The position numbers and the translations under genes are program-made. A stretch of DNA of 64,000 nt from Pacificibacter marinus (GTDB lineage: Bacteria > Pseudomonadota > Alphaproteobacteria > Rhodobacterales > Rhodobacteraceae). The notes beneath the pieces are model-generated. The model saw only the letters and a program-made list of their open reading frames with translations. It had not been told where the DNA came from and searched no databases. The stretch spans positions 124,001 through 188,000 of the forward strand of contig NZ_FNZV01000003.1 in the NCBI RefSeq assembly GCF_900109555.1, read 5' to 3'. How positions within the stretch are numbered: position 1 is the stretch's first letter; every line of letters begins with the position of its first letter. Of this stretch, positions 1,421-22,667 are shown piece by piece.

Positions 1421-2212
1421 ATGACAAAAACCATCCTGATTACCGGCGCAACCGACGGTATTGGCCGTGCCACCGCTTTGGCCCTTGCAGCTCAAGGGCA
1501 CCGCATGATCGTTCATGGGCGCAGTGCTGAGAAACTGAATGCTTTGGTGCAAGAGATTGGCGGCGATGCCACGACTGTTCAGGCCGATATGTCGGATCTA
1601 TCGCAGGTCGCCGAAATGGCGCGCGACCTCAAGAACAGCAACGATAGGATCGACGTTGTGATCAACAACGCGGGCGTGTTCAAAGTCCCCGAACCGCTTA
1701 CGCGTGATGGTTTGGATGTCCGATTTGTAGTGAACACATACGCGCCTGCACTCCTCTCTAACCTCTTGCTGTCCATCATGCCGAACGACGGACGGTTGGT
1801 GCATTTGTCGTCAGCCGCGCAAGCACCCGTCGACATTGATGCGATGGAGGGCAAGCGCCGGCTGAACGACATGGGGGCCTATGCGCAAAGCAAACTGGCG
1901 CTGACTATGTGGAGCCAGGATTTCGCAGCACATCACCCCGACGGACCACTGTCGGTCGCCGTGAACCCGGGGTCTCTACTGGCCACGAAGATGGTGCGTG
2001 AGGGCTTTGGCACCGCAGGAAATGATCTGAATATCGGCGTTGATATCCTGACCCGTGCGGCGCTTTCGGATGAGTTTTTAGATGCGTCGGGTCGGTATTT
2101 TGACAATGATTCTGGTGCATTTGCGGCGCTACATCCCGATGCGGCTGATGCGGACAAAGTCGCAAAGGTTGTTGCCGCGATTGATAGACAGATTAACGGC
2201 GCGCTTACATAG
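1421..2212 (+). CDS. SDR-family NAD(P)-dependent oxidoreductase
   Basis: A 263-residue classical short-chain dehydrogenase. It opens with the Rossmann motif TGATDGIG, has the NNAG motif near residue 80, the serine in HLSSAAQ, and the catalytic pair in YAQSK. The C-terminal part is typical of the retinol-dehydrogenase/WW-domain-oxidoreductase-like group. The start at 1421 follows the LLM stop by 10 bases with GGAAG upstream; a longer frame from 1379 would overlap the LLM gene and is less likely. Its last third, from 1931 on, lies inside an inverted repeat shared with 13019-13440, where only a deleted fragment of this gene remains. It is the intact copy. It converges on a LysR fragment 6 bases downstream. 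Confidence 0.88.
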   Translation: MTKTILITGATDGIGRATALALAAQGHRMIVHGRSAEKLNALVQEIGGDATTVQADMSDLSQVAEMARDLKNSNDRIDVVINNAGVFKVPEPLTRDGLDVRFVVNTYAPALLSNLLLSIMPNDGRLVHLSSAAQAPVDIDAMEGKRRLNDMGAYAQSKLALTMWSQDFAAHHPDGPLSVAVNPGSLLATKMVREGFGTAGNDLNIGVDILTRAALSDEFLDASGRYFDNDSGAFAALHPDAADADKVAKVVAAIDRQINGALT

Positions 2213-2464
2213 GGGCGGCTACAACATCAAATCAGAACGATGCGCGGTGAAGTGGTCAATAAGGCGTCGGGTCAGCGCTTTTTGCGGTCCGATGTCTGGC
2301 CAAACCGCGTAAATGCCCAATGTGGGCAAGTTCCAGTCAGGTAGAACGCGCTGCAATTGTCCACTTTCTATTTCGTGTTCGATCACGCTTCGCGGCAGAT
2401 GCCAGATACCAAGCCCAGCCAGCACGGCAGCCTTGGCGGCATTTACCTCAATACGCATGTTGGT
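1931..2464. repeat. Left arm of a large inverted repeat (partner 13019-13440)
   Basis: The 3' third of the SDR gene and the 3' end of a LysR gene, in convergent order, recur in inverse orientation at 13019-13440. Bases 2187-2335 match 13305-13157 perfectly (149 bp); outside this core the arms differ by scattered substitutions. Relative to the partner, this arm lacks 9 bases inside the LysR part but keeps 121 bases of the SDR that the partner has lost. Confidence 0.93.
2219..2464 (-). pseudogene. C-terminal fragment of a LysR-family regulator
   Basis: This minus-strand frame encodes about 80 residues nearly identical to the C-terminus of the complete LysR gene at 12380-13273, ending in the same residues (HRSDLML). 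The N-terminal helix-turn-helix and most of the effector domain are missing: homology stops at 2464 and unrelated sequence follows. A 9-base in-frame deletion removes three residues (N-T-V) compared with the full copy. It cannot bind DNA as a regulator. It converges on the intact SDR at 2212. The fragment is explained by the inverted repeat in which it lies. Confidence 0.93.
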
Positions 2465-2615
2465 TGGGGGGGAGCCGGACGTTCACGAATGTGAACGAAT
2501 GGCAGCTTCGCCCCACACAGCGGACCTTGACGCAGCAAGTTGCGAAGGTCGGGTTCAAGTTTTTTTGCCTAGGCCGTGTCTTTTGTCGAAGCCTCCGACC
2601 TCATCCCTGTGACTG

Positions 2616-2732
2616 TCAGCCTGCAATCGCTACTCCGATCTTGCCCATGTGCGATTTTTCCAGAAATGCTTTCTGCGCTGCGTGCAAATCGCGCAACGGA
2701 TACCAGCCGTTCGCAAGGGATCGCGCCGCTGC
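2616..2732 (-). pseudogene. C-terminal remnant of a zinc-type alcohol dehydrogenase / quinone reductase
   Basis: Read on the minus strand, about 38 residues ending at a TGA (2616-2618) show the family tail: GWYPLRDLHAAQKAFLE followed by K-S-H-M-G-K-I. This helix and strand close medium-chain dehydrogenases and quinone reductases. Nothing upstream in the same frame continues the gene. The rest of 2465-2853 holds no convincing gene. It could be a relic of the gene whose cousin enters at position 2 of the window, but the two tails are not identical. Confidence 0.65.
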
Positions 2733-2853
2733 GGTGTAGCTTCCAGGAAGCGATCATCTAAAAATATGTCGATAAAAGACTGACGGACAGTAACCTTTTG
2801 AGGCCACGCTTTGCTCGGAATCGTTATGCATACTGAAAGCTCGGGTGAATAAC

Positions 2854-3723
2854 TCAGCCTTCGCTAATGGTCCCCAACCAGTCCAGAAAAACGCTCAACC
2901 GGCGAAGGCCCGAGGCGCGGGTAAGGTAGAGCGCTGAGATATTCAAAGGGGCGGCGTCGAGCTGGCCGGGGAACAGATCAATCAAACGCCCAGCTTGGAT
3001 GTCTTCTGCGATCATGAAATCAGAAAATCGCGCGATACCCAGACCGCCTAATACCATCTGGCGCACGGCCTCTCCATTGCCTGCGGTCACGGCGGACGGC
3101 ACCGATACTGGGGAGGCCAGACCGGCGAAGCGCAGCGTATTGATATGATCTGGTGCCGCGAACCGAACTTGCTCCAGCTGTGCGAGGTCGGCTGGTGTTT
3201 TGGGCCAGCCGTTTCGGTCGAGATATTCCGGGGTCGCCACCAACTTCCAGTCCGTGCGTCCCAAGGGGCGGTGCAACATGTCGCTGTCAGGCAACTTTCC
3301 CAGCCTGATGGCAACGTCCGCGTGACTGCCGATCAGATCCACCAGCGTGTCTGTCATGTCGATAGACAGTTGGATGTCGGGGTATTGCGCGTGAAACTCG
3401 GCCAGACGCGGTGCGAGGACGTGTAAAACATACGGCACAGGCGCGTTCACCCGCAGCGGCCCGGCGGGGGCCTGTCCGCTGGTTGCTATCTCTTGCAGGG
3501 CTTCGCTCCGGTCCAGAATTTCACGCGCTTCTGCCACAACAGCGGCGCCTTCGGGGGTGATCTCGATAGACCGCGTGGTGCGGCGAAGCAATGTGACCTT
3601 CAACTGCTCTTCCAGTCGCGTGACCGACCGGCTGAGCGTAGAGGCAGACACCCCTCTGCGCCGTGCAGATTCAGCAAAGCCCCCATCATCGACGATCCCG
3701 ACAAACGCGGCCAAGTCTCCCAT
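2854..3723 (-). CDS. LysR-family transcriptional regulator
   Basis: A 289-residue LysR-type regulator in the CrgA/DsdC-like group. The N-terminal winged helix-turn-helix is clear (ESARRRGVSASTLSRSVTRL near residues 15-34), followed by the linker helix and a periplasmic-binding-like effector domain (PLRVNAPVPY onward). I take the ATG at 3723 (MGDLAAF), which aligns with where these proteins usually begin; the frame stays open to 3816 but those extra residues run into the promoter region. It is divergently transcribed from the MFS exporter at 3835, the standard layout for a LysR controlling its neighbour. Confidence 0.88.
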   Translation of the reverse strand: MGDLAAFVGIVDDGGFAESARRRGVSASTLSRSVTRLEEQLKVTLLRRTTRSIEITPEGAAVVAEAREILDRSEALQEIATSGQAPAGPLRVNAPVPYVLHVLAPRLAEFHAQYPDIQLSIDMTDTLVDLIGSHADVAIRLGKLPDSDMLHRPLGRTDWKLVATPEYLDRNGWPKTPADLAQLEQVRFAAPDHINTLRFAGLASPVSVPSAVTAGNGEAVRQMVLGGLGIARFSDFMIAEDIQAGRLIDLFPGQLDAAPLNISALYLTRASGLRRLSVFLDWLGTISEG

Positions 3724-3834
3724 GCGCAGTAATTCGTGCAGTTTTTGCAATGATCCATTCCAAACTTGCCTGTTCTCGCAATAGATAGCGGCTGGCATAT
3801 ACGGCGTCGACATCAAATTTATTGGAGAACACCG
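3724..3834. promoter_or_regulatory. Divergent promoter region between LysR and MFS exporter
   Basis: The 111 bases separate two divergent genes and must hold both promoters and, by LysR convention, the operator. GGAGA at 3824-3828 is the ribosome binding site of the exporter. I could not pick a clear -35/-10 pair or a clean T-N11-A operator by eye. Confidence 0.5.
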
Positions 3835-5016
3835 ATGCCACTTGCCCTTTGGGCGCTGACCATCAGCGCTTTCGCCGTCGGAACGACCGAGTTCGTTATC
3901 GTCGGCTTGCTTCCCACCATCGCCGCCGATCTTGGCGTTTCAATTCCTTCTGCAGGCCTTTTGGTCAGCCTCTATGCGCTTGGCGTGACCATTGGCGCGC
4001 CAGTGCTGACCGCCATGGCCGACCGTGTGCCGCGCAAAACGCTGTTACTTCTCTTGCTGGCGCTGTTCACGCTCGGCAATGCTTATGCCGCCTTTGCGCC
4101 GGATTACGGCAGCCTTGTCGCTGCGCGCTTTATTACTGGTCTCGCTCACGGCGTGTTCTTTGCAATCGCCTCGACCATCGCGACCGATCTTGTAGAACCT
4201 GAAAAGGAAAGCTCAGCCATTGCGCTGGTTTTCCTTGGTTTGACTGTCGCGCTTGTGACGGGTGTGCCCTTGGGGACGTTCATCGGCCAAAACTTCGGCT
4301 GGCAGTCAACTTTTCTTGGCGTTGTCGCGCTTGGCGTGATCGGTTTCATCGCTTCTGCCATCTTGTTGCCCGCCAATCTGACCAAGACCGCATCAGCGGG
4401 GATCAAAGCCCAACTACAGGTGCTGACTTCGCCGCGCCTTCTGCTGGTCTATCTGATCACGGCTGTCGGCTATGGTGGCAACTTCATCGCCTTTACTTTC
4501 CTCGCGCCGATGCTGAACGAAGTCACGGGCCTGTCCGCAGGCGCGGTTAGTCTTGTGCTATTGCTCTACGGTGCATCTGTCGCCGTGGGGAATATCGCCG
4601 GCGGCAAACTGGCTGACCGTATCGGTCCAGTAGCGTCCCTGACGGTGATCTTTGCTGGTCTTGCGATATCACTGGTCGCACTTGGTGCGTTCCTTACACA
4701 TCCGATTGCAGCCATCGCGGTTGCGGCTTTCTGGGGCGGTTTTGCCTTCGCCAACGTGCCGCCGCTGCAGTCTTACGTCGTGCAAATCGCACGCGAAGTC
4801 TCGCCGGGCGCGGTTGATGTGGCGTCCGGTCTGAACATCGGTGCGTTCAACCTCGGCATTGCTGGCGGCGCATGGGCTGGTGGACTTGTGGTGGAAGGCA
4901 TCGGCCTTGCCGCTGCGCCTTACATCGCCGCTGGTGTGGTGGTTGTCGGGATCGTTCTGGTGCGCCTGTCTGGTCGCTTGAACGCAACAGCACCCCAAGC
5001 TGTTGCTGCCGAATAA
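3835..5016 (+). CDS. MFS transporter, DHA1 family (AraJ/NepI-like efflux)
   Basis: A 393-residue major facilitator with 12 hydrophobic segments. The opening LALWALTISAFAVGTTEFV and the signature G-LLPTIAADLGVS are typical of the DHA1 sugar/drug/purine efflux branch (AraJ, NepI, YdhP). The loop after helix 2 carries the MFS motif ADRVPRKT, repeated in the second half as KLADRIGP. It sits in the inner membrane and should export a small hydrophilic compound in exchange for protons. The start at 3835 has GGAGA upstream; an earlier in-frame codon at 3766 lies inside the divergent promoter. The flanking LysR gene is its likely regulator. Substrate unknown. Confidence 0.9.
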   Translation: MPLALWALTISAFAVGTTEFVIVGLLPTIAADLGVSIPSAGLLVSLYALGVTIGAPVLTAMADRVPRKTLLLLLLALFTLGNAYAAFAPDYGSLVAARFITGLAHGVFFAIASTIATDLVEPEKESSAIALVFLGLTVALVTGVPLGTFIGQNFGWQSTFLGVVALGVIGFIASAILLPANLTKTASAGIKAQLQVLTSPRLLLVYLITAVGYGGNFIAFTFLAPMLNEVTGLSAGAVSLVLLLYGASVAVGNIAGGKLADRIGPVASLTVIFAGLAISLVALGAFLTHPIAAIAVAAFWGGFAFANVPPLQSYVVQIAREVSPGAVDVASGLNIGAFNLGIAGGAWAGGLVVEGIGLAAAPYIAAGVVVVGIVLVRLSGRLNATAPQAVAAE

Positions 5017-5114
5017 CCTCACTTGCCCCGCCGTATCTTTGTGGTGCGGGGGGGCAAACCAATCAAATGGAGCTTCGTATCATGTCTGCCCTAGATCTAA
5101 TCTAGAAAGACCGC

Positions 5115-5553
5115 ATGACTTTTGGCATTGAATTGCCGCTGGACCGCGACTGGACCGAAGCCGTCCAACGTCTTGCCCGTATCGAGGGTCGCCCCTTTGG
5201 CGTGCCGGACATCTCAAACCCCGCCAAGGGCGTGGAGCTGGCCGAGAGCCTTGGCTTCGATGCGGTCTGGCTGCGTGACGTGCCGGTTCACGATCCAAGC
5301 TTCGGGGATGCAGCGCAGATCTTCGACCCGTTTCCTTATCTTGGCTTTCTTGCAGGCTGCACCCGTCGCATTGCGCTTGGCACTGCGGGTATCGTCTTGC
5401 CGTTGCGCGATCCGATCATGCTGGCCAAGATGACGGCCAGCCTACATCATCTTTCTGAAGGGCGCTTTATCCTTGGGATCGCATCGGGGGACCGTCCGGT
5501 GGAATACCCCCTTATGGGTTTCGACTACGAGGCCCGCGGAGCCACCTTGCGCA
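5115..5553 (+). pseudogene. N-terminal part of an LLM-class flavin oxidoreductase, cut by an insertion remnant
   Basis: From the ATG at 5115 about 146 residues match the N-terminal half of the complete LLM protein at 448-1410: ELAESLGFDAVWLRDVPVHD, then IVLPLRDP, then GRFILGIASGDRP. After TLR (about 5553) the similarity ends. The frame runs into unrelated sequence and the C-terminal half of the TIM barrel is absent. An IS3-type orfA start lies on the opposite strand just beyond (5664-5732), so transposition or deletion around an IS is the likely cause. A 7-codon ORF at 5082-5105 precedes it and is probably not meaningful. The two LLM genes are diverged paralogues, not a recent duplicate. Confidence 0.85.
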
Positions 5554-5663
5554 TGCCCAGTCACCGTGCGCCCTTATCTGGAAGGGAAATGGCAGGTCGT
5601 GTCGTCGATTTATGACCGTTTCGGCGGATTGCATTTCCATGACTGGATGAAAGTGCGCCGCGC

Positions 5664-5732
5664 ACTCCGTGCAAAGTCAGCTTCGCGTAACTTCACGACA
5701 ATCTCTTCGGGCATGGGTCTCTTAATGGCCAT
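5664..5732 (-). mobile_element. IS3-family OrfA start, remnant
   Basis: On the minus strand an ATG at 5732, preceded by a GGAGGA ribosome binding site, encodes MAIKRPMPEEIVVKLREAD. This is the usual beginning of OrfA (helix-turn-helix subunit) of IS3-family transposases of the IS407-like group. The similarity ends after about 20 residues, and no OrfB or terminal inverted repeats can be seen nearby. The element is therefore a stub left by a deletion. It lies at the broken end of the LLM gene. Confidence 0.72.
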
Positions 5733-5800
5733 TGTTGGTCCTCCGCTTTCCTAGCTATAGGGGAGGCTCAAGTGTACTGGCGCTGCAAAGTAAAACCGAT

Positions 5801-6556
5801 TTAGTCTTCTCTGGCGCGTTGCCTCAGGCGTTTGAAAACGTCCTCAGTCCCGCTTTCTCCCTCAAGCAGCTGCCAACGTTCAAGCAGTGGTCGCCCGGAA
5901 TTGCGACAATGTAATGCCATCGCAGCGCGCGCACCTTTGGCGTCGTGTGCCGCAAGTGCGTTCACGATGGCCATGTGTTCGCCGCGCGAAAACTGCGCGA
6001 TGTCATCGGGGCTTTGTCGGTTGTTCAACCGCGTCCATTCGGGATAGCGCTGGCGCACGCGCCAAAAGTCTTTGACGACAGAAACAAAGACCGTATTACC
6101 AGTTGAGCGCGCAACGGTCAGGTGAAATTCGCTGTCGAAAGCTTCAATCTGGTCAAGGCTGACGGTCGTGGCGCACATTCCCTCGACGCAGCGTTCAAGT
6201 TGGGCGATTTCGGCTGGGGTGATCAGCGCTGCGGCGATTGATGCAATTTCCGGTTCGATTACAAAGCGTGCTTCGACCAGTTCAAAATAGCCAGGCAGGC
6301 CAGATGTTTCGATCTGAGTGTCGGGCAGAGTGCGCGTAACAAAAGCCCCAGCCCCATATCGGGTGACAACATAGCCCATCAATTCTAGCGCAATCATTGC
6401 CTCGCGCACCGTGGTGCGGCTGACACCAAGTTGTTCAACAAGATCCTTGTCCGCCGGCATTTTGCTATCAAGTGGAAGATCGCCAGCGCGAATACGCGCG
6501 GCGATCTCGTCTGCTACAAGGCGATAGCGGGGCGTTTGGACGATAGGGTTCAGCAT
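5801..6556 (-). CDS. GntR-family regulator, FadR/FCD subgroup
   Basis: A 251-residue regulator. The N-terminal winged helix (residues 10-75) includes PADKDLVEQLGVSRTTVREA and the GAGAFV wing. The C-terminal all-helical FCD ligand domain carries the metal-binding pattern of this class (ERCVEGM, FDSEFHLTVARSTGN, EHMAIVNALAAHDAKGARAAM). Such proteins usually sense a carboxylic or sugar acid. It is the third gene of an operon dctP-denD-gntR, starting 9 bases after the dehydrogenase stop, with AAGG upstream of the ATG. It most likely controls the promoter in front of dctP. Ligand unknown; an acid sugar such as erythronate fits the neighbours. Confidence 0.88.
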   Translation of the reverse strand: MLNPIVQTPRYRLVADEIAARIRAGDLPLDSKMPADKDLVEQLGVSRTTVREAMIALELMGYVVTRYGAGAFVTRTLPDTQIETSGLPGYFELVEARFVIEPEIASIAAALITPAEIAQLERCVEGMCATTVSLDQIEAFDSEFHLTVARSTGNTVFVSVVKDFWRVRQRYPEWTRLNNRQSPDDIAQFSRGEHMAIVNALAAHDAKGARAAMALHCRNSGRPLLERWQLLEGESGTEDVFKRLRQRARED

Positions 6557-6565
6557 ATATGCGCC

Positions 6566-7531
6566 TTAGGTGTTTGGAAGATCGTCTTCCATATAGTAAC
6601 GGACATTGTCCTCAAAGCTGGTATCCGCTTTCAACCCGAGTGCCAATGCCTTGTCAAACCGGTAGTCAAAGCGCCAGCCGCGAACGATAGCGGCAATGTC
6701 TGGTTGTGCTTCCCATTTAATCAGTTTCGCCGGTTTTGGTCCAGCGACGGCTGTCAGCGCGTCAATCATCTGCCGTATCGACAGGCGCTGACCTGGCAAG
6801 GTCATACAGCGCTGTTGACCCAAGTCTGGGGCGTTTAGCTCTGCTCCTTTAATCAAGTTTTCGACGCAACGGCGAGGCGATAGGTAGAAATGTTCTTGAT
6901 CCTCATCGACAGGACAGATCGCAGGTTCGCCATTCAATGGCTCGCGGATGATGGACGACATAAAGGAAGACGCCGCGCGATTGGGCTTGCCTGGCCGCAC
7001 GGAAATCGTCGGAAGACGGAACCCACGCCCGTCGACATAGCCTTTGCGGGAATAGTCGTTCAGCAACAGCTCGCCGATGGCCTTTTGCATGCCGTAACTG
7101 GTTTGCGGATTGGGGATCGTGTGATCGGTGATTGGGTCAGGTACCTCGCCACCGAAAACAGCAAGTGATGAGGTGAAGACAACAACGGGACATGTGCCGA
7201 GCATGCGGCACCGCTCAAGTATGTTGAGTGTCCCGTCGAGATTAACTTTCATCCCGACTTCAAAATCTTCTTCTGCATGAGAGGACACGACAGCCGCAAA
7301 GTGGAAAATCACGTCCGTGTCGGTGGTGATCAGTTGATCGACGGATGCGCGGTCGGTGATGTCGCAGGCCGTTGTATGGACAGCAAAAGGCGCATCAAGA
7401 GTGTCGGGTGCGGCAATGTCAGCAAGCGTCAGAGATTGAATGGTTTGTCCGCGTAGGCTGCCTTTTTCCGCAAGGCTTTGTGCCGTTTTGCGGCCAATAA
7501 AGCCGCCGCCGCCGATGATCGTTACATGCAT
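6566..7531 (-). CDS. denD: NAD-dependent epimerase/dehydratase-family protein, D-erythronate dehydrogenase-like
   Basis: The 321-residue protein is an extended short-chain dehydrogenase. It begins with the nucleotide motif TIIGGGGFIGRK, has the HFAAVVSSHAE segment, the S-S-L serine (FTSSLAVFG) and the YGMQK catalytic Tyr/Lys pair, then the FRLPTISVRPGKPN stretch. That stretch is characteristic of D-erythronate dehydrogenase (DenD), which oxidises four-carbon sugar acids at C2. Neighbours fit: a TRAP binding protein and a GntR regulator, the usual partners of such pathways. The kinase and aldolase/decarboxylase steps that complete the known pathway are not in the window. Symbol given by similarity; the exact sugar acid is uncertain. 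Confidence 0.78.
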   Translation of the reverse strand: MHVTIIGGGGFIGRKTAQSLAEKGSLRGQTIQSLTLADIAAPDTLDAPFAVHTTACDITDRASVDQLITTDTDVIFHFAAVVSSHAEEDFEVGMKVNLDGTLNILERCRMLGTCPVVVFTSSLAVFGGEVPDPITDHTIPNPQTSYGMQKAIGELLLNDYSRKGYVDGRGFRLPTISVRPGKPNRAASSFMSSIIREPLNGEPAICPVDEDQEHFYLSPRRCVENLIKGAELNAPDLGQQRCMTLPGQRLSIRQMIDALTAVAGPKPAKLIKWEAQPDIAAIVRGWRFDYRFDKALALGLKADTSFEDNVRYYMEDDLPNT

Positions 7532-7610
7532 TTTGATCGTTTTCCTAGGTATGGGAAGGGAGGAGAGATGGGAAGAGGAGCCGCCGATCGCAGCGGCGGC
7601 CCCAAGTTAG

Positions 7611-8627
7611 TTATTCGGCCTGCGGGCCAAGACCGATGCGCGCTAAGAATGCCTTGTGGCTATCGACCATTACCTGCGCTTCAGGTGTCTTTGCACCCCA
7701 GATATCCCAACGGCTGATCGCGGCCTTACGGAACGCGGCGCGGTCTTCTGCGGACCAATCATAAAAGGTCACACCGAGTTCAGGCAGTTGCGTCAATGCT
7801 TCGCCATTTTCGACGGTTGTCCGCATCATCAGGTTCAACGCAAGTGAGTCCATCGCAGTTTTCAAGATCATCTGCTGCGCTGGATCCAATCCATCCCAAA
7901 CGGTTTTGTTACACGCTAGGTGATCCGAGCTCATGGAATGAAAGCCAGGGTAGGTGGTGTGTTTGACGACATCGTAGATGCCTAAACCCACGTTATTGGC
8001 CAGTGTAGACGCGTCTGCCCCATCGATGATGCCAGTTTCAAGTGCTGTGAAAATCTCGGTGAAGTCCATGACCACAGGCGCGGAACCAAGCTCTGCAAAG
8101 ATTTCAGTTTCCATGCCTGGAGGTGAACGGAATTTCCATCCCTTGAGGTCTTCGATCCCGTTCAAGGGCTTGGAAGAGTTCATCGATTCCTGCCCGCCTA
8201 GATAGGAACCGACAAATTCCATGCCGCTTGCGTGGTACAATTCGTTCATGGCTTCACGACCACCGCCGTAGGAAATCCACGTCAGAAACTCAACCGGTGT
8301 GTCATAGCCACCCATCGTGTCTGCCGCGAACTGATAGGCTGGGTTAATGCCCGTCTGATAGCTTGGGTTGGTCATGTCGCAGTCAAGAACGCCGTTGGAC
8401 GCCGCAGAAAAGGTCTCGGCTGAGGCGACGATTGCAGAACTGTAAAACATTTCGATGTCAAGCGATCCATTCGACATGGCTTCGACCTGATTCACGAACT
8501 CTTTCACAAGTTGGCCAGAAGTGGATTCTGGTGACTGGTGCGTTTGAATGCGTAGGGTGGTCTGCGCGGATGCGCCTCCGGCTAAAAGCACAGAGCTTGC
8601 AAGAAGAGCGGTGAGTAATTTCGACAT
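7611..8627 (-). CDS. dctP: TRAP transporter solute-binding protein, DctP family
   Basis: A 338-residue secreted binding protein. The start at 8627 (GGGGGAC upstream) gives a clean signal peptide, SKLLTALLASSVLLAGG, cut after A-S-A. The mature part shows DctP features: SGQLVKEFVNQVEAMSNGSL, a GWKFRSPPGM segment containing the conserved arginine that holds the substrate carboxylate, and the TGIIDGADAS turn. It would deliver an organic or sugar acid to a TRAP permease. Oddly, no DctQ or DctM gene is adjacent: denD follows directly, and upstream is a gap and a receptor fragment. It is therefore an orphan binding protein unless it works with a permease elsewhere. Confidence 0.88.
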   Translation of the reverse strand: MSKLLTALLASSVLLAGGASAQTTLRIQTHQSPESTSGQLVKEFVNQVEAMSNGSLDIEMFYSSAIVASAETFSAASNGVLDCDMTNPSYQTGINPAYQFAADTMGGYDTPVEFLTWISYGGGREAMNELYHASGMEFVGSYLGGQESMNSSKPLNGIEDLKGWKFRSPPGMETEIFAELGSAPVVMDFTEIFTALETGIIDGADASTLANNVGLGIYDVVKHTTYPGFHSMSSDHLACNKTVWDGLDPAQQMILKTAMDSLALNLMMRTTVENGEALTQLPELGVTFYDWSAEDRAAFRKAAISRWDIWGAKTPEAQVMVDSHKAFLARIGLGPQAE

Positions 8628-8971
8628 TATGTCCCCCAAATATGTTTCATCAACACGGGTACTATAACTAAGCTTTGCCATATTGCCAGACAATTATACA
8701 ATACAGTTCTCAATTCAAATTCAATCAGTGCGCGCAGTTCATACTGTGACGCTCGGCGTATGACGAAGAAGATTCGTCTAATTTGAAGATTTGTCTTGGT
8801 CGATCTGAATCAAACGAGTGAGGTAGTCCCCATTCGCTGACCATTATCAGACATTTGAAGATTGCGCGCGATACAGCTATTACATCACGATCACAGATGA
8901 TGCCGTTCTGGACGATCGGATGGGCCGACCAAGCATTTTTGCCCGGTCGCCCTATAGTGTCTGACCGCCGA
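8628..8971. other. Gene-free stretch upstream of dctP, with a candidate promoter
   Basis: No supportable gene is seen in these 344 bases. On the minus strand a TATAAT hexamer lies at 8698-8693, about 70 bases before the dctP start, within an AT-rich tract. A matching -35 box at standard spacing is not obvious. The region may also have lost TRAP permease genes. Confidence 0.4.
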
Positions 8972-9330
8972 TTAGAATTCTCGGCTTAGAGCAAGCGATA
9001 CGACACGCCCTTCGCCTTTGGAACAACCGTAGCCATCATAATCGAGGCAGAGCGAGGCCTGATGGTTCGGCGCAAAGGCATTTTCATTGCCGATGAGCGA
9101 GCTGTCAGAGGACTCGGTGATTTCAGTTTCAAGATAGGTGTAGCTTGCCACACCCTGAAGCGTGTCTGTCAGGCGCCCGCGCGCCTCAAGTTCGATCCCT
9201 TGAGATTTCACCTCGCCATACCCATCGGGAACAATTCCAACAGCACCCACAAGGCTTTTTATCGAAAAGACAACATCGCGTGCGCGAAGCGCCTGCCGCG
9301 TAATTCTTTGGTTATTACTGCCCGCCCGCG
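8972..9330 (-). pseudogene. C-terminal fragment of a TonB-dependent siderophore receptor
   Basis: About 90-110 residues encode the end of an outer-membrane beta barrel: GYGEVKSQGIELEARGRL, then strands around YTYLETEITESS, then NHQASL. These are typical of FhuE/FpvA-type ferric-siderophore receptors. The plug domain, TonB box and most of the barrel are missing, and the last strand ends in ALSREF rather than the usual W-x-F/Y-x-F barrel end. The frame stays open leftward (to the stop at 8972) but there is no start codon in a plausible place. The left edge of homology near 9300 is approximate. Confidence 0.75.
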
Positions 9331-9357
9331 CCAGCCCTATATTTGTTTGTCAGCACT

Positions 9358-9966
9358 TCAAATTGACACCCGGACACGTCGACGGCGCACATTGTAAACC
9401 AGCCGATAGGTCTCCAGCGCAATCAGCGGTACAAAATGCACCATCGCGGCACCAACCCCGCCCCAATCATGCAGCGCTGCCCAATGCAAAAGCGTCAGCA
9501 CCGCTGCCCCATAAACGCCCCGCTGGAGGGTTTTCCAGCGAGGGCCCAGTTTGCGAACCCAGCCGTCTGTCGATGTGACAGCCAAGGGCAAGAAGATCAG
9601 GAAGGCAAGCCAACCGCTCCAGATGTAGAGTTTGGACATTTCGCCGCCCGAAAAGGCGACTGCACCTTCGTCAACAAGGTATAGGATTGTATGTGCCAAA
9701 GCATAACCGAATGCAGCAACGCCAAGATAACGCCGCCGCTTCATCAGCCAGCGTGGTCCACGCCAACCTTTGAACAGCATCATCAATGGCGTGATCATCA
9801 TCGCGATGATCATGAACCTTGCCGCAAATTCACCGGTTGGGTGCAGCAGTTGATGGACTGCTTCAGGATCGCCAGAGGTCAGGCCGATCACCATTGGAAT
9901 GGCAGGCAGCGTCAGGATGCCCCAAAAGGTATAGGGTGAATTGAAAAACGATTTTATTAAGGACAT
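9358..9966 (-). CDS. MsrQ/YedZ-like heme-binding membrane protein (ferric-reductase-like)
   Basis: About 202 residues with five or six hydrophobic helices. Conserved histidines sit in membrane segments (GYALAHTILYL and TLLHWAALHDW), the arrangement used to bind b-type heme in MsrQ/YedZ and the ferric-reductase transmembrane family. MsrQ passes electrons to the periplasmic MsrP that repairs oxidised methionines. No msrP lies here. The preceding gene is a quinone reductase wreck, so the electron partner is unclear. The start is uncertain: ATG codons at 9966 and 9981, both with weak ribosome sites, are possible. It is last in the minus-strand operon running from 12285. Confidence 0.75.
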   Translation of the reverse strand: MSLIKSFFNSPYTFWGILTLPAIPMVIGLTSGDPEAVHQLLHPTGEFAARFMIIAMMITPLMMLFKGWRGPRWLMKRRRYLGVAAFGYALAHTILYLVDEGAVAFSGGEMSKLYIWSGWLAFLIFLPLAVTSTDGWVRKLGPRWKTLQRGVYGAAVLTLLHWAALHDWGGVGAAMVHFVPLIALETYRLVYNVRRRRVRVSI

Positions 9967-10034
9967 TGAAGTTACTTTCATGTCGTGGCGTTTGGCTGAA
10001 TAGGGCACTCAAGCAGCAACGCAAAAAGGGGTTC

Positions 10035-10879
10035 TCAACCTGCGAGCGATCCGAAATAATCGGCCCAGCTTTGGTGGGGTCGGCCTGCTGCGGCTGCAAA
10101 ATCGCTGGGTGCATCGTAAATACCACGACGAATGCCTTCATATATACCGCCGATGATTGGGCCTATGAAATCGCCCAGTTCGGCTGTGCGATCCGCGACG
10201 TACTCTTCTGGAGACATCTCGCGATAGGTCAGCGACGTGCCGAATGCACCGTTCAAGTAATCGGTAAGCTCGGTTTGACTGATGGGAGTGCCCATAGGTT
10301 AAACGTCTGGCCGTTTAAGGTGTCGTTTCTTAACAAGCAGGCATAGGCATGGGCCAACTCAGAACGAGTCGTGTAGCCGCATTTGCCCGCACCGGCGCTG
10401 TTGGCGATTTCGCCTTTGGCTTTGTAGCTTTCGATATATTCCACGTCCGGTTCGATATAGATGCCGTTGCGCCCGATAGCATAGGCAAGCCCGCTGTCGC
10501 GCACGTCGGCTTCGGTCTGGCGGTTGCTTTGCACAACGGGGGAAAAGGCTGTGCCTTCTTCAACCCCTTGAATACTGGTGTAAACGATCTTTTGCACGCC
10601 GGCGGCCTTTGCTGCCTCAATGACGTTGCGGTGCTGCTGAATGCGGGCGTCAGGGGCATCCATGCCGGACACCAGCAACAAGGTATCAACGCCCGCTAAA
10701 GACGCTCGCAACTGCTCCGGTTGCCCGTAATCGCCAGCGCGGATTTCAATACCAAGATCTTTTGCGTTCGCAGGGGTGCGGGCAAGGCCGATGATGGTTT
10801 CGCCATCTGCGGTTTCGATCAGATTGCGGGCAATTGCTCCGCCAAGTTGGCCTGATACGGCTGTAATCGCGATTGTCAT
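10035..10879 (-). pseudogene. NAD(P)H:quinone reductase (QOR2/NmrA-like), frameshifted
   Basis: Two minus-strand frames together give a whole protein of the YtfG/QOR2 atypical SDR family. Frame one (10879 to about 10295) has the TAVSGQLGGAIARNL Rossmann start, the YTSIQGVEE strand and the GRNGIYIEPDVEY segment. Frame two (about 10294 to 10035) carries the C-terminal part with SQTELTDYLN and YEGIRRGIYD. They join at TTTAACCTATGGGCAC, where the family expects FNLWGTP. One G has been lost from a G4 run (10291-10293 on the plus strand). The first frame has AAGGA before its ATG. Without correction the protein would lack its C-terminal third. A sequencing error is the alternative. Confidence 0.85.
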
Positions 10880-10936
10880 TGTGGGGTTCCTTCATTGCGG
10901 CAGATGGGCGCAGGATGCGCCCATCTGATTAATCTC

Positions 10937-11428
10937 TTAGCCGTGGTAGGCTTGGCTGATCGCAAAGCTGTCTTCAAACCAGTTCCACAGAACCACCTGA
11001 CCATCACGCACTTTAGCACGCAGAGCAAATGTGAATTCACCGATTTCTTTACCGCTGTGGGTCGTGACGCCATTCATACGGCCAAACACGGCAACCGTAT
11101 CTCCAGAGGCGAAGGCGTCGGTGTTTTCCCATTTGGTTGTCTGAAAGTTGGCTGCAAAAACGCCAAGGAATTCAAAGATGGCTTCTTTGCCAACAGTCTC
11201 GCCAATCCAAGGCAATGATGTGTCGCCTTCGGTGTGCCAGACCATATCATCAGCCATTAGACTACCCATGGTTTCCATGTCTCCGCTGCCCATCGCGCCC
11301 ATAAAGGCCATGACAGTGTCAAAGCTGGCTTGTGTTGTTTCGTCCATGTTCTGCGCTTCTGCCTGTGTCCCAAGCATCAGCGCAAGCGCCGCGCCAAGGG
11401 ACGTTGTGAGTAAAGTTCTGCGATGCAT
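10937..11428 (-). CDS. Exported NTF2/SnoaL-like protein
   Basis: A 163-residue protein with an N-terminal signal sequence (HRRTLLTTSLGAALALMLG, cleavage near A-E-A; the RR pair may be a Tat signal). The rest fits the NTF2-like cone fold, with MGSGDMETMGSLMADDMVWH, LPWIGETVGKEAI and a late WNWFEDSF strand. The SD is perfect (AGGAGG) with the ATG at 11428. It follows the SnoaL-like gene and precedes the quinone reductase in the same operon. These folds act as small isomerases, cyclases or binding proteins; the reaction here is unknown. Location should be periplasmic. Confidence 0.8.
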   Translation of the reverse strand: MHRRTLLTTSLGAALALMLGTQAEAQNMDETTQASFDTVMAFMGAMGSGDMETMGSLMADDMVWHTEGDTSLPWIGETVGKEAIFEFLGVFAANFQTTKWENTDAFASGDTVAVFGRMNGVTTHSGKEIGEFTFALRAKVRDGQVVLWNWFEDSFAISQAYHG

Positions 11429-11482
11429 AATGTCCTCCTGCGGGGTGTTGGCCCAGATTTCTCTGGGCCATTACTTATTGAG

Positions 11483-11953
11483 TTATTGACCTGAAAGCTG
11501 TTGAAGCGCGCCTGCCCAGTCTTCGACGTGGTAAGTTTGTGTGATGACGCCATCTTCCAACTCGTGGATGTCGATGGTCATGATGTCAAAGCTGCGACCT
11601 TCACCATCAACACCAAAGAATGGCGCTACAGGCGTGCCAGTTGCACGGCTGCGCACAATGACAGTGTTACCGTCTTGGTGCATGTCTTGGATCGCCCAGT
11701 TCAGGTCTGGCATCAGTTGTCCAAAACCACCCACTTGACCGAGGAACGCTTCGCGGGTTTTGTTGTTGCCTGAATAATCGCCCATGCTGGTCCAGTCTTC
11801 AGATGTTGCTGCCTCAAACGCGGAGACGTATTCTGCGGAACCCGGGTTGCTAAGCAGATCGTAGAATGTTGTCACCGTGGCAGTATCATCAGCGAATGCG
11901 CCAGTTGCGAGTGTGGCAAGGGCTGCGGATGCAAAAAGAGTCTTAAGTGTCAT
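11483..11953 (-). CDS. Exported SnoaL-like / ester-cyclase-family protein
   Basis: About 156 residues. The start at 11953 gives a normal signal peptide (TLKTLFASAALATLATGAFA) with a weak TGGAAA site upstream; a longer frame reaches 12016 but would run into the previous gene. The mature protein has the SnoaL-like pattern: AFEAATSEDWTSMG, REAFLGQVGGFGQLMPDL, then VRSRATGTP and a final strand YHVEDWAGALQQL. This is the NTF2 fold used by polyketide cyclases and many stress proteins. It is a distant relative of the next gene (10937), so the operon encodes two exported NTF2-like proteins in tandem. Reaction not known. Confidence 0.8.
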   Translation of the reverse strand: MTLKTLFASAALATLATGAFADDTATVTTFYDLLSNPGSAEYVSAFEAATSEDWTSMGDYSGNNKTREAFLGQVGGFGQLMPDLNWAIQDMHQDGNTVIVRSRATGTPVAPFFGVDGEGRSFDIMTIDIHELEDGVITQTYHVEDWAGALQQLSGQ

Positions 11954-11991
11954 GATATTTTCCAGTCTTTGATTAAGGGGAGGGTAAAGGG

Positions 11992-12285
11992 TTAGGCGGA
12001 TACGACGGGCTGCCATTCAATCCGCGGGCTTTCGCGGAATGCGAACCGTTCCAGATGACTGCCGATCACGCGACATGCTTTGGTCAGGTCGGCTTGGGTT
12101 TCGGCATTTACAGTCAGGTCCAAAATGTCTTGCTCAGCGGCCAAGGCACATTGCCCAAAAGGGAAAGTGATCAGACCGAATTTAGGGCCAAACTGCACCT
12201 CGATCTTGTGCCCGAAGTGCTTGCACAGTTGTTGCAAGTACCCGCTGGCCCGTTCTGTTGTGAATTTTGCATTGCTTGTGAACAT
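11992..12285 (-). CDS. DUF2218 family protein
   Basis: The 97-residue protein matches the small DUF2218 family found mostly in proteobacteria and actinobacteria: an N-terminal segment with YLQQLCKHFGHKIEV, a central GLITFPFGQC strand, and a C-terminal helix LTKACRVIGSHLERFAFRE. No membrane segment or signal peptide, so cytosolic. The family often sits beside siderophore or iron-uptake genes, but no function is established. It heads the minus-strand operon (AGGAGA before the ATG) that continues into two NTF2-like genes, the quinone reductase and the MsrQ-like gene. It is divergent from the LysR gene at 12380. Confidence 0.82.
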   Translation of the reverse strand: MFTSNAKFTTERASGYLQQLCKHFGHKIEVQFGPKFGLITFPFGQCALAAEQDILDLTVNAETQADLTKACRVIGSHLERFAFRESPRIEWQPVVSA

Positions 12286-12379
12286 TGCTGTCTCCTGTGT
12301 GTTGAAGACAGAAATAGACAGAACGCGGCTTTATGATTATCCCACATGTTAAGAAATCATTTTTACAGGAATTAGAAAG
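12286..12379. promoter_or_regulatory. Divergent promoter/operator region between the DUF2218 operon and LysR
   Basis: These 94 bases separate the DUF2218 operon from its likely LysR regulator. An inverted pair ATGATT (12333-12338) and AATCAT (12355-12360), separated by 16 bases, lies close to the LysR start and is a candidate regulator site. The ribosome site for LysR is a weak AGAAAG. Confidence 0.45.
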
Positions 12380-13273
12380 ATGATCGAAGACTATCGTAGC
12401 CTCGCCGTTTTTGTGGCCATCGCTGACACGGGGAGCCTGAGTGCTGCGGGTCGGCGGCTCAAACTGTCAACATCTGTCATCAGCCACCATCTGTCGCGGT
12501 TGGAAGAACGTCAGGGTGTGACGCTGTTCTTTCGTTCGACGCGGTCCATGTCATTGACGCCCGAAGGCCAAATCGCGCTTGATCCCGCCCGCCGAATGGT
12601 CGCCGCAGGTGAGGAGGCCTTGGATGCGATTCATGCAGGAAACGAGGAACCCGTCGGGGCGCTTCGTGTGGCGATGCCTGCTTTTGGTGAGCAAAGTAAA
12701 CTGCATCAGGCGCTGTGGGATTTTGCACAAATGCATCCGATGGTCGCAATCTCACTCCAGTGCAGCGACATATCGACTGATTTGGTGAAGGATGGTTACG
12801 ATCTTGCGATCCGCTTGGGCACATTGCGCAGCAGCAACTTGAAAAGCCGCCGCATTGCCGATTTTGAACGCTTGCTGGTCGCCTCACCAGACTATCTGTC
12901 CACGTGCGCACCAATTGTGACGCCGCAAGATCTTGAGGCGCATGACTTTATCGCCGTGACGCAAATTCCATCCTTGATGACGTTGGAACGCAAAGAGCAA
13001 TCAGTGAGCATTGCCCCGACCAACATGCGTATTGAGGTGAACACTGTAAATGCCGCCAAGGCTGCCGTGCTGTCTGGGCTTGGTATCTGGCATCTGCCGC
13101 GAAGCGTGATCGAACACGAAATGGAAAGTGGGCAATTGCAGCGCGTTCTACCAGATTGGAACTTGCCCACATTGGGCATTTACGCGGTTTGGCCAGACAT
13201 CGGACCGCAAAAAGCGCTGACCCGACGCCTTATTGACCACTTCACCGCGCATCGTTCTGATTTGATGTTGTAG
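12380..13273 (+). CDS. LysR-family transcriptional regulator (intact copy)
   Basis: A full-length 297-residue LysR regulator. The helix-turn-helix spans roughly residues 18-38 (SLSAAGRRLKLSTSVISHHL), followed by the linker helix and the effector-binding domain (GALRVAMPAFGEQ onward; GYDLAIRLG is the classical LysR strand). It is divergent from the DUF2218/SnoaL/NTF2/quinone-reductase operon and probably controls it. Its C-terminal 85 codons lie in the inverted repeat. A truncated copy of that part is at 2219-2464. It converges on a fragment of the SDR gene that is intact at 1421-2212, so by reconstruction it once faced that SDR. Confidence 0.92.
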   Translation: MIEDYRSLAVFVAIADTGSLSAAGRRLKLSTSVISHHLSRLEERQGVTLFFRSTRSMSLTPEGQIALDPARRMVAAGEEALDAIHAGNEEPVGALRVAMPAFGEQSKLHQALWDFAQMHPMVAISLQCSDISTDLVKDGYDLAIRLGTLRSSNLKSRRIADFERLLVASPDYLSTCAPIVTPQDLEAHDFIAVTQIPSLMTLERKEQSVSIAPTNMRIEVNTVNAAKAAVLSGLGIWHLPRSVIEHEMESGQLQRVLPDWNLPTLGIYAVWPDIGPQKALTRRLIDHFTAHRSDLML

Positions 13274-13440
13274 CCGCCCCTATGTAAGCGCGCCGTTAAT
13301 CTGTCCATCAATCGCGGCAATAACCTTTGCGACTTTGTCCGCATCAGCCGCATTGGGATGTGGCGCCGCAAATGCACCATCTTCGTGGCCAATAGAGCCC
13401 CCGGATTCACGGCGACCGACAGCGGTCCGTCGGGGTGATG
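13019..13440. repeat. Right arm of the large inverted repeat (partner 1931-2464)
   Basis: This is the inverse copy of 1931-2464. Bases 13157-13305 match 2335-2187 exactly. A 121-base stretch of the partner's SDR part is absent here, joined at a TGGTGC hexamer (reverse complement at 13374-13379) that occurs at both deletion ends in the intact arm (1992-1997 and 2113-2118). Outside 13019 and 13440 the two loci are unrelated. Confidence 0.93.
13280..13440 (-). pseudogene. C-terminal fragment of the SDR gene with internal deletion
   Basis: Minus-strand remains of the SDR gene that is complete at 1421-2212. It retains the HHPDGPLSVAVNPG strand and the last 30 residues ending in DGQINGALT, but the intervening 121 bases are gone, which also shifts the frame. 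The N-terminal cofactor domain and the catalytic Tyr/Lys are absent. No start codon or ribosome site belongs to it. From 13441 to 13624 I see no gene. Confidence 0.92.
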
Positions 13441-13624
13441 CAGCATGCGACACAGGGCTTCCAGCCAGAAAGTCTGACAAAGGCGATGCAATATGTTCAC
13501 GCGATGCAATGGCAAAGCAAAGGTTTGAACAGTCCCATATTTGGCCGTTTTCGCGTGCGATAGCTGCTGGTGAGGGGCGACAGGCGCCACATATTTTTAG
13601 ACATCGCCCCGATGCTTTGTTTCT

Positions 13625-14284
13625 TTATACTGGCCAGATTGATTGAAGTTTTTCACCAGCAAGAATGCGATCTCGTGCAGCCGCTTCATCTTTGCCGAGT
13701 TCATCGGCTTGATCTGCAACGGCGCTCAGGTGTTCTTTGGGAATGCAAACAACCCCATCGATATCTCCGAAGATCACATCACCAGGCCGGATTGTCACTC
13801 GTCCAAAGGTGACGGGGACCTGTGCGGCGATAGGTTCTTTCTTGCCGGTGACACCAACAGGACTTGGTTCCGTGCCAAACAGCGGGTACCCGAGTGCGCG
13901 CACTTGAGCCAAATCACGAACGGTACTGTTGACAATAGTTGCGGCGGCTCCTCGTGTTTTGGCACCACTGCTCATGAGTTCGCCTGAACATGAGCCTGCT
14001 GCGCAAGATGCTTCGCAAACTAAAATGCCGCCTTCTGGTGCTTTGTCTACAGCGCCATGGTAGATATCTTGTGGCTCGCCTTTACGGTCAGAGAGGCCAA
14101 ACAGAACAGTCACCGCAGGGCCACATACTACTTTTCCGTCATCTAAGGCGCCCAACAGGCGGATGCCGTCAAGATGGCCCCAGAGGCCCAATGCCTCCAT
14201 ACTGTCATGGACGTCGCCAGAGTACCATTTCGACAGCCGCTTGATGGCCTCCCAATCCGTATCCGTATAGTTGTAGTCAGCCAT
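13625..14284 (-). CDS. RraA-family protein (HMG/CHA aldolase or oxaloacetate decarboxylase-like)
   Basis: A 219-residue member of the RraA/dimethylmenaquinone-methyltransferase-like family. These metal-dependent enzymes include 4-hydroxy-4-methyl-2-oxoglutarate aldolase and oxaloacetate decarboxylase; others bind RNase E. Seen are DGKVVCGPAVTV, the GAAATIVNSTVRD segment with the conserved R-D pair that binds substrate and metal, and the PGDVIFGDIDGVVCIP strand. Usual family proteins read G-x-V-x-D-G before the R-D; here it is V-N-S-T, a modest departure. It starts 2 bases after the GntR stop, so the two are co-transcribed. In this sugar-acid context an aldolase role is more likely than RNase control. 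Confidence 0.82.
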   Translation of the reverse strand: MADYNYTDTDWEAIKRLSKWYSGDVHDSMEALGLWGHLDGIRLLGALDDGKVVCGPAVTVLFGLSDRKGEPQDIYHGAVDKAPEGGILVCEASCAAGSCSGELMSSGAKTRGAAATIVNSTVRDLAQVRALGYPLFGTEPSPVGVTGKKEPIAAQVPVTFGRVTIRPGDVIFGDIDGVVCIPKEHLSAVADQADELGKDEAAARDRILAGEKLQSIWPV

Positions 14285-19038: not shown

Positions 19039-20438
19039 ATGAGCTTTTTCTTAGGAGTTGATGTCGGCACAGGCAGCGCGCGAGCAGGCGTTTTTGACGC
19101 CAAAGGTACTTTGCTCGGCACATATGCCAAAGAGCTGGAAACGTACCGTCCGAAATCTGGGTTCGCACAACAGGCGTCTACTGAAATTTGGGATGCTGTT
19201 GTGGATGCTGTGAACGGAGCTGTGAGTGCGGCGGGAATTGATCCCGCCGCCGTGTCTGGGATTGGCTTTGATGCTAAGTGCTCTCTTGTCGTAACTGGTG
19301 ACCCGCAAAGTGTTGGGTTGAGTATTGATCCTGCAGGGTCGGTCGGCTCTTCTGGTGCAACGCAGGATGTCATCTTGTGGATGGATCATCGTGCGCAAAA
19401 GGATGCCGAGGCAATCAATTAAATCGGCGGCGCGCACCTTGAACATGTCGGTGGGCGGCATCTCACCAGAGATGGAGTTGCCGAAGCTCCGGTGGCTAAA
19501 ACGTGAGCTTCCTGATGTCTGGAAGGCGACTGACCGTTTTTGGGACCTACCTGATTGGTTGGTTCACCGCGCAACAGGCGACGAGCTACGTTCGCTTTGT
19601 TCGACTGTGTGCAAGTGGACCTATCTTGGCCACAAAGGCCAAAATGGTGAAGGGTGGGATGGCGATTTTCTCAAGGCAATCGGTCTTGATGATTTAACGC
19701 GCAATGACGCCGCCGCCCTCGGTGCTGCTCTAGCACCTCCTGGAGTAAAGGCTGGCGGTTTGACACGATTGGCTGCGAAAGAGCTGGGATTACCGGTTGG
19801 GACACCCGTCTCGACAAGTTTGATCGATGCGCATGCTGGGGCACTTGGAGCACTTGGGGCCGACCTGCCAGAAAACGGCCTAGATCAACGCCTTGCATTA
19901 ATTGCTGGCACATCCAGTTGTCACATTGCGCTCACGTCTTCGCCGATCTTCGTTCCTGGTATTTGGGGACCATATTTTGGTGTGATATTGCCCGACCTAT
20001 GGGCGCTGGAAGGCGGTCAGTCAGCTGCAGGAGCCCTTTTGGATGCCGTCATTGCACGGCACTCTGCTTCCGTGCCTTTGTACGACGAGCCTTGGAAACA
20101 GGGCAACGTGTCAGCGATTTAATCGAGGCGCACCTTGAGACAATGGCACAAGAAACGGCCATTCTCACCCATGATCGACATGTGCAACCTGACTTTCAAG
20201 GCAATCGTGCTCCTTTGGCGGAACCATCGCGCAAGGGCGCTATCAGCGGGCTAACTTTGAATGTTGGGCTTGATGATTTGGCCTGCGATTATCTCGCTAC
20301 AGTGCAGGCTCTGGCATACGGTACGCGTCACATTATAGAGGTTCTGCGCGCAAAAGGGTACAGATTGAGACGCTTGTGCTCAGTGGAGGCTTGGTCCGAA
20401 ACACGCTTTTTCAACGCGAAAATGCAGATGCCACTGCT
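19039..20438 (+). pseudogene. FGGY carbohydrate kinase (ribulokinase-like), multiply broken
   Basis: Pieces in three frames add up to most of an FGGY kinase: GVDVGTGSARAGVFD (ATP-binding start), GIGFDAKCSLVV typical of the YDR109C/ribulokinase branch, RELPDVWKATDRFWDLPDWL, GTSSCH, and LSGGLVRN near the end. Breaks seen: a TAA at 19420-19422 in place of a sense codon; a one-base insertion near 19453-19460; a frameshift between about 20075 and 20100; a one-base loss near 20361-20366. Finally the C-terminus is deleted and the frame fuses to the next gene near 20438. The kinase must be inactive. It starts 4 bases after the SDR stop, so it was part of the tctCBA operon. Confidence 0.9.
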
Positions 20439-22592: not shown

Positions 22593-22667
22593 TGGCTGGG
22601 GTGGTAGGATTCGAACCTACGGTACATGCTACCAAAAAGCATTGCCTTACCGCTTGGCTACACCCCA
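22593..22667 (-). tRNA. tRNA-Gln (anticodon TTG)
   Basis: The minus strand folds into a full cloverleaf. The acceptor TGGGGTG pairs with CACCCCA, the D arm contains AGCCAAGCGGTAAGGC, the anticodon stem is ATGCT/AGCAT with the seven-base loop TTTTGGT (anticodon TTG), and the T arm holds GGTTCGAATCC. The discriminator is followed by an encoded CCA (22595-22593). The 3' end faces the integrase remnant, the usual position of an attachment site. Confidence 0.96.

Follow-up and report, generated by a model that had tools for sequence, protein, structure and literature searches.

Reciprocally truncated genes in an inverted repeat of Pacificibacter marinus: a possible scar of an inversion with a duplicated breakpoint

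In a 64,000-nucleotide stretch of the Pacificibacter marinus genome (contig NZ_FNZV01000003.1, positions 124,001 to 188,000; hereafter the window, whose own numbering is used throughout), two inverted repeat arms enclose a segment of about 10.5 kb, and each arm joins the 3' end of one intact gene to the headless stub of another. The left arm (1931-2469, + strand, 539 bp) holds the end of an intact SDR gene and a 3' stub of a LysR gene, while the right arm (13014-13440, - strand, 427 bp) holds the end of the intact LysR gene and a stub of the SDR gene; the reciprocal truncation reported in a preliminary description of this DNA is confirmed. The arrangement has the look of an ordinary scar left by rearrangement, not of a programmed switch. 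We give about an even chance to the explanation we favour, a single local rearrangement in the form of an inversion with a duplicated breakpoint.

The intact SDR gene (1421-2212, + strand; Pfam PF00106) ends inside the left arm, next to the LysR stub (2219-2469, - strand), which corresponds to residues 211-297. The intact LysR gene (LysR1, 12380-13273, + strand; PF00126/PF03466) ends inside the right arm, next to the C-terminal part of SDR that makes up the other stub (13280-13440, - strand). Aligned base by base in inverted orientation, as the preliminary description had proposed, the arms share 418 columns with 14 mismatches (3.3%) and two gaps. The larger gap, of 121 bp, is a deletion from the SDR stub, with left positions 1992-2112 missing from the right arm; its length is not a multiple of three and it falls between TGGTGC direct repeats. 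The smaller gap is 9 bp of LysR missing from the left arm, and both deletions fall on the stub halves. At either end of the repeat similarity breaks off abruptly, no more than a few bases being shared there (judged by eye), and a search of the genome with positions 1900-2500 matched at the two arms only, the right arm in two pieces.

The preliminary description had reconstructed a single locus in which the SDR and LysR genes were convergent, and this order exists in relatives. A scan with the LysR protein across genome contigs found 26 loci, of which some (L058 and L059) match only a portion of the gene; in the comparison of SDR beside LysR, neighbour matches below 38% identity were dropped. 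The two genes stand tail to tail in three of these loci (L035, L048, and L057), in two of them (L035 and L048) within a wider cluster. The uncultured Sulfitobacter (L035) has the order SnoaL-NTF2-LysR1 / SDR-LLM-DUF1330-quinone reductase-LysR3, where LLM is a luciferase-like monooxygenase. Roseovarius aestuarii (L048) has NTF2-LysR1 / SDR-LLM-quinone reductase-LysR3, with no DUF1330 or SnoaL match, and Roseovarius sp. ZX-A-9 (L057) has the junction with its SDR in two pieces and the N-terminus missing (4448-4934). In P. marinus, the window together with the DNA on its left likewise shows the SDR-side block as LysR3-quinone reductase-DUF1330-LLM-SDR; here the DUF1330 protein (93-395, + strand; PF07045) is syntenic in L035 and the LLM (499-1410, + strand; PF00296) in both L035 and L048, and near full-length SDR orthologues are 94% (L035) and 85% (L048) identical. 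The junction in these three loci is the basis on which we take positions 2470-13013 (10,544 bp) as the segment that probably turned. The arm sequence is single-copy in the examined stretch of each of the three joint-bearing relatives, and the examined stretches of all 26 loci contain no inverted second copy. In Ahrensia kielensis (L042), a second partial LysR tail (19549-19728) lies in direct orientation some 9 kb away from the complete LysR gene.

The pair was also sought in 394 genomes of the family, with six candidates scored per genome and the counts being lower bounds. LysR at E<=1e-110 occurs in at least eight and SDR at E<=1e-90 in at least 27, the present genome included in both counts. 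Among the candidates scored, both genes were found in the present genome and in two others (G041 and G267), where they lie on different contigs. Among 20 genomes of the genus, the present one included, no other was found to have the SDR-LysR junction.

Judged from sequence comparison, the duplicate most likely arose in the P. marinus lineage. A tree of the LysR side (18 rows) places the stub and the intact LysR as sisters (96/91), nested in a clade with P. marinus F2R14 (99/97), a genome of the same genus. The arms agree at 242/248 positions on the LysR side, for which the best identity to the six relatives compared is 92.6%, and at 156/164 on the SDR side, for which the best to three relatives is 91.6%. 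It is this greater closeness of the arms to each other than to relatives, together with the LysR-side sisterhood, that points to a duplication within the lineage.

We suggest the following course of events. In the ancestor, SDR and LysR would have formed one tail-to-tail locus. An inversion would then have turned about 10.5 kb, reaching from the SDR/LysR joint to a spot rich in relics on the far side of LysR2. With a staggered break at the joint, or a joint copied in repair, about 0.5 kb with both gene tails would have been duplicated and left, inverted, at both ends. The reciprocal truncation would follow if the far side of such a joint was rejoined inverted; each arm would then have an intact gene alongside a headless stub, and neither gene would be lost. 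The 121-bp and 9-bp deletions would have occurred in the stubs later. We infer that the inversion and the duplication happened together and that the LysR-bearing block was the one that turned, by one of the repair routes named.

Several observations weigh against this explanation. No SDR match lies beside LysR in 23 of the 26 LysR loci, F2R14 included; as F2R14 is the closest in the LysR tree and 22 other loci share the lack, the ancestral order rests on three other genomes. On the SDR side the pairing of the arms is weaker (82/78, in a tree of five rows). Of the 14 mismatches, 10 can be polarised, one arm's base being found in none of three relatives, and these divide into five on the intact halves and five on the stub halves; substitutions therefore do not mark the stubs as changing faster. 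A perfectly matching run of 149 bp within the arms suggests that conversion or crossing over may have followed, without proving it. Identity to L035 is 92% for the SDR block and 85% for the LysR block, a contrast that could mean separate imports. When the interior of the left end (2850-2470, reverse complement) was joined to 13441-13640 as the expected "empty site", no fetched locus matched across the join. Landmarks of orientation are also discordant. In L035, beside a gene that we take from its sequence to be nrdJ, LysR and nrdJ share a strand, just as they do in the window, and it is the SDR block that is reversed, which at face value means that the SDR block moved and turned and not that the LysR segment simply inverted; the cluster of L038 is found close to tRNA-Gln in the opposite sense. 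The two loci conflict on which block moved, and we did not use them to choose.

The far breakpoint would lie among relics. Just inside the left arm is a C-terminal relic (2616-2711, - strand), whose frame ends in NGWYPLRDLHAAQKAFLEKSHMGKIGVAIAG followed by a stop and which looks like the C-terminus of another, putative quinone oxidoreductase; first-look DNA searches (two candidates scored per genome, giving leads and no counts) found short matches to it in other genomes of the family, which we treat as a lead only. Directly outside the right arm, and abutting it, is an internally deleted relic of the zinc-ribbon C-terminus of a UvrD-like helicase (13441-13529). The first piece of this relic is 93-96% identical over 53-65 bp to places in the present genome (G000:C32), F2R14 (G010:C63), and a further genome (G002:C1), and the second piece is 85-94% identical. 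A second copy in the present genome lies at G000:C32:21180-21364, in G010 and G002 the same tail belongs to a long open reading frame (965-967 codons; Pfam was run on the G010 gene), and a short piece occurs in G009. Since the tail occurs at these other places, it does not mark an original neighbour, and we rejected it as the original right flank. By eye, the sequence upstream of the relic at its other places does not resemble the left interior.

The preliminary description was right about the extent of the perfect core (149 bp; 2187-2335 in the left arm and 13157-13305 in the right, the longest mismatch-free run), which it had taken as the mark of recent recombination or gene conversion. We dropped the core as proof of recent recombination after a run-length test in which 14 mismatches were scattered over 418 columns in 20,000 draws. 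The longest run reached at least 149 bp in 2.9% of uniform draws and in 2.4% of draws weighted towards sites variable among three relatives (weights of 1 and 0.15, which were our choice). Such sites are nearly as frequent in the core (33/149) as outside it (66/269). With p about 0.03, the perfect core is a mild surprise, and this is suggestive only.

The run is one of the points in favour of a reading in which the duplicate arose first, or with the rearrangement, and the segment turns at low frequency by RecA-type crossing over through the core, passively and without regulation, so that the population may contain both orientations. Arms exactly like the present ones would result from such crossing over, and the flipped order is the order of the three relatives. 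However, the arms are 3.3% diverged, the one assembly holds a single orientation, and a lone double stub is absent from the examined stretches of the 26 loci; we think this reading unlikely. That the segment is still flipping through the core, so that the population holds both a split and a joined catabolic locus, is more doubtful again; if it were so, the LysR gene would lie either beside the LLM-SDR genes or 10 kb away from them.

We hold it just as unlikely as the passive turning that two longer inverted copies, made by duplication in the genome or brought by two related imports into the region between nrdJ and tRNA-Gln, suffered complementary losses. The region is patchy and contains relics, and the unequal identity of the two blocks to L035 is what separate imports could produce, but each of L048 and L057 stands at much the same distance from the two blocks. 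With 97.6% identity to the intact LysR of its own genome and 86.6% to L035, the LysR stub is not explained by an L035-like donor, and more events would be required than for an inversion with a duplicated breakpoint.

A wrong orientation in the assembly is a little less credible than continued flipping. The true order would then be an intact LLM-SDR/LysR locus and, elsewhere, a decayed double stub, the wrong sides having been joined through the core. The genome is a draft of 43 contigs, the identical core is longer than the k-mers in common use for short reads, and both deletions, which fall on stub halves, would come together on one remnant. Against this, ordinary read pairs would presumably span 149 bp.

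A programmed inversion switch with a dedicated recombinase, the "live or recent" switch of the preliminary description, is suggested by inverted repeats around a segment with a regulator gene but is very improbable, as the arms are two gene tails, 3.3% diverged and with deletions in both stubs, and not short matched sites; by gene layout the upstream regions of the intact SDR and LysR would stay with them in either orientation, so that the region driving each gene would not change; and neither PF00589 nor PF00239 has a match in the window (other recombinase families were not searched genome-wide), with no recombinase among the 17 window proteins scanned with Pfam. The nearest PF00589/PF00239 matches on the contig (C26:273981 and C26:297148) lie about 86 and about 109 kb past the end of the window. 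Invertons are likewise segments bounded by inverted repeats; they differ from the present case, with its long, diverged arms made of gene tails, its layout in which no promoter is turned, and its window free of PF00589/PF00239 matches.

The segment itself carries LysR2 (2854-3747, - strand; Pfam) and an MFS transporter (3838-5016, + strand; PF07690), which are contiguous in F2R14, followed by a 4.4-kb stretch (5068-9480) in which Pfam identifies an LLM fragment, GntR, an epimerase, DctP, and a TonB-receptor fragment. Beyond these are a ferric-reductase-like membrane protein (9358-9990, - strand; PF01794), an NmrA-like protein (10253-10879, - strand) of 208 aa against 281 aa in F2R14, a SnoaL-like protein (10937-11428, - strand; PF12680), and a SnoaL/NTF2-like protein (11483-11956, - strand; PF07366) divergent from LysR1, which is 92% identical to its F2R14 counterpart. 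F2R14 (G010) has LysR2-MFS joined to the NmrA-SnoaL-NTF2-LysR1 block; window positions 2718-5067, 9481-9681, and 9926-13272 are consecutive there with their internal order unchanged, and most of the segment would therefore be an older unit. The F2R14 region has no SDR and no nucleotide match to 5068-9480 or 9682-9925, and the flanks of 5068-9480 are adjacent in it. Either this stretch was gained here or it was lost in F2R14. A match to a plasmid of Paracoccus seriniphilus continues to window position 5552, and at least part of the stretch, up to that position, may therefore have been lost in F2R14. The plasmid search returned five records, all matching the LysR2-MFS side only. Between nrdJ, some 6.3 kb to the left of the window, and tRNA-Gln (22593-22667) lies what seems to be a variable region made up of catabolic modules. 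About 39.5 kb separate nrdJ in F2R14 from the match of the next gene, which follows nrdJ closely in G014; the copy of that next gene in the present genome has no Pfam match.

Inversions with a duplicated breakpoint are known in bacteria as DNA duplication associated with inversion (DDAI), the founding paper of which is said to have appeared in PNAS in 2011. DDAI has been reported in Thermus tengchongensis with an inversion of about 128 kb (PMC8963470) and is treated for bacteria in PMC4671568; as here, a chromosomal inversion has at its ends an inverted copy of formerly single-copy breakpoint DNA, with gene fragments as by-products (PMC8963470, PMC4671568). In contrast to the Thermus case (PMC8963470), the P. 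marinus segment is about 10.5 kb and both intact genes survive. It also differs in that only other genera are known to show the joined state, and the original join of the other breakpoint was not found. The mechanism suggested here is also that of staggered-break inversions in Drosophila, a eukaryote, for which end joining is the repair put forward (PMC3355041). In open-licence literature on DDAI, staggered-break inversions, and invertons we found no title on this bacterial group, which is no proof of absence from print.

If the favoured explanation holds, the P. marinus locus is a compact case of an inversion that splits a gene pair with neither gene lost, because the breakpoint was copied. 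The gene order of relatives can test such a reading, and mirror-image pairs of truncated genes should not by themselves be taken as evidence of a switch.

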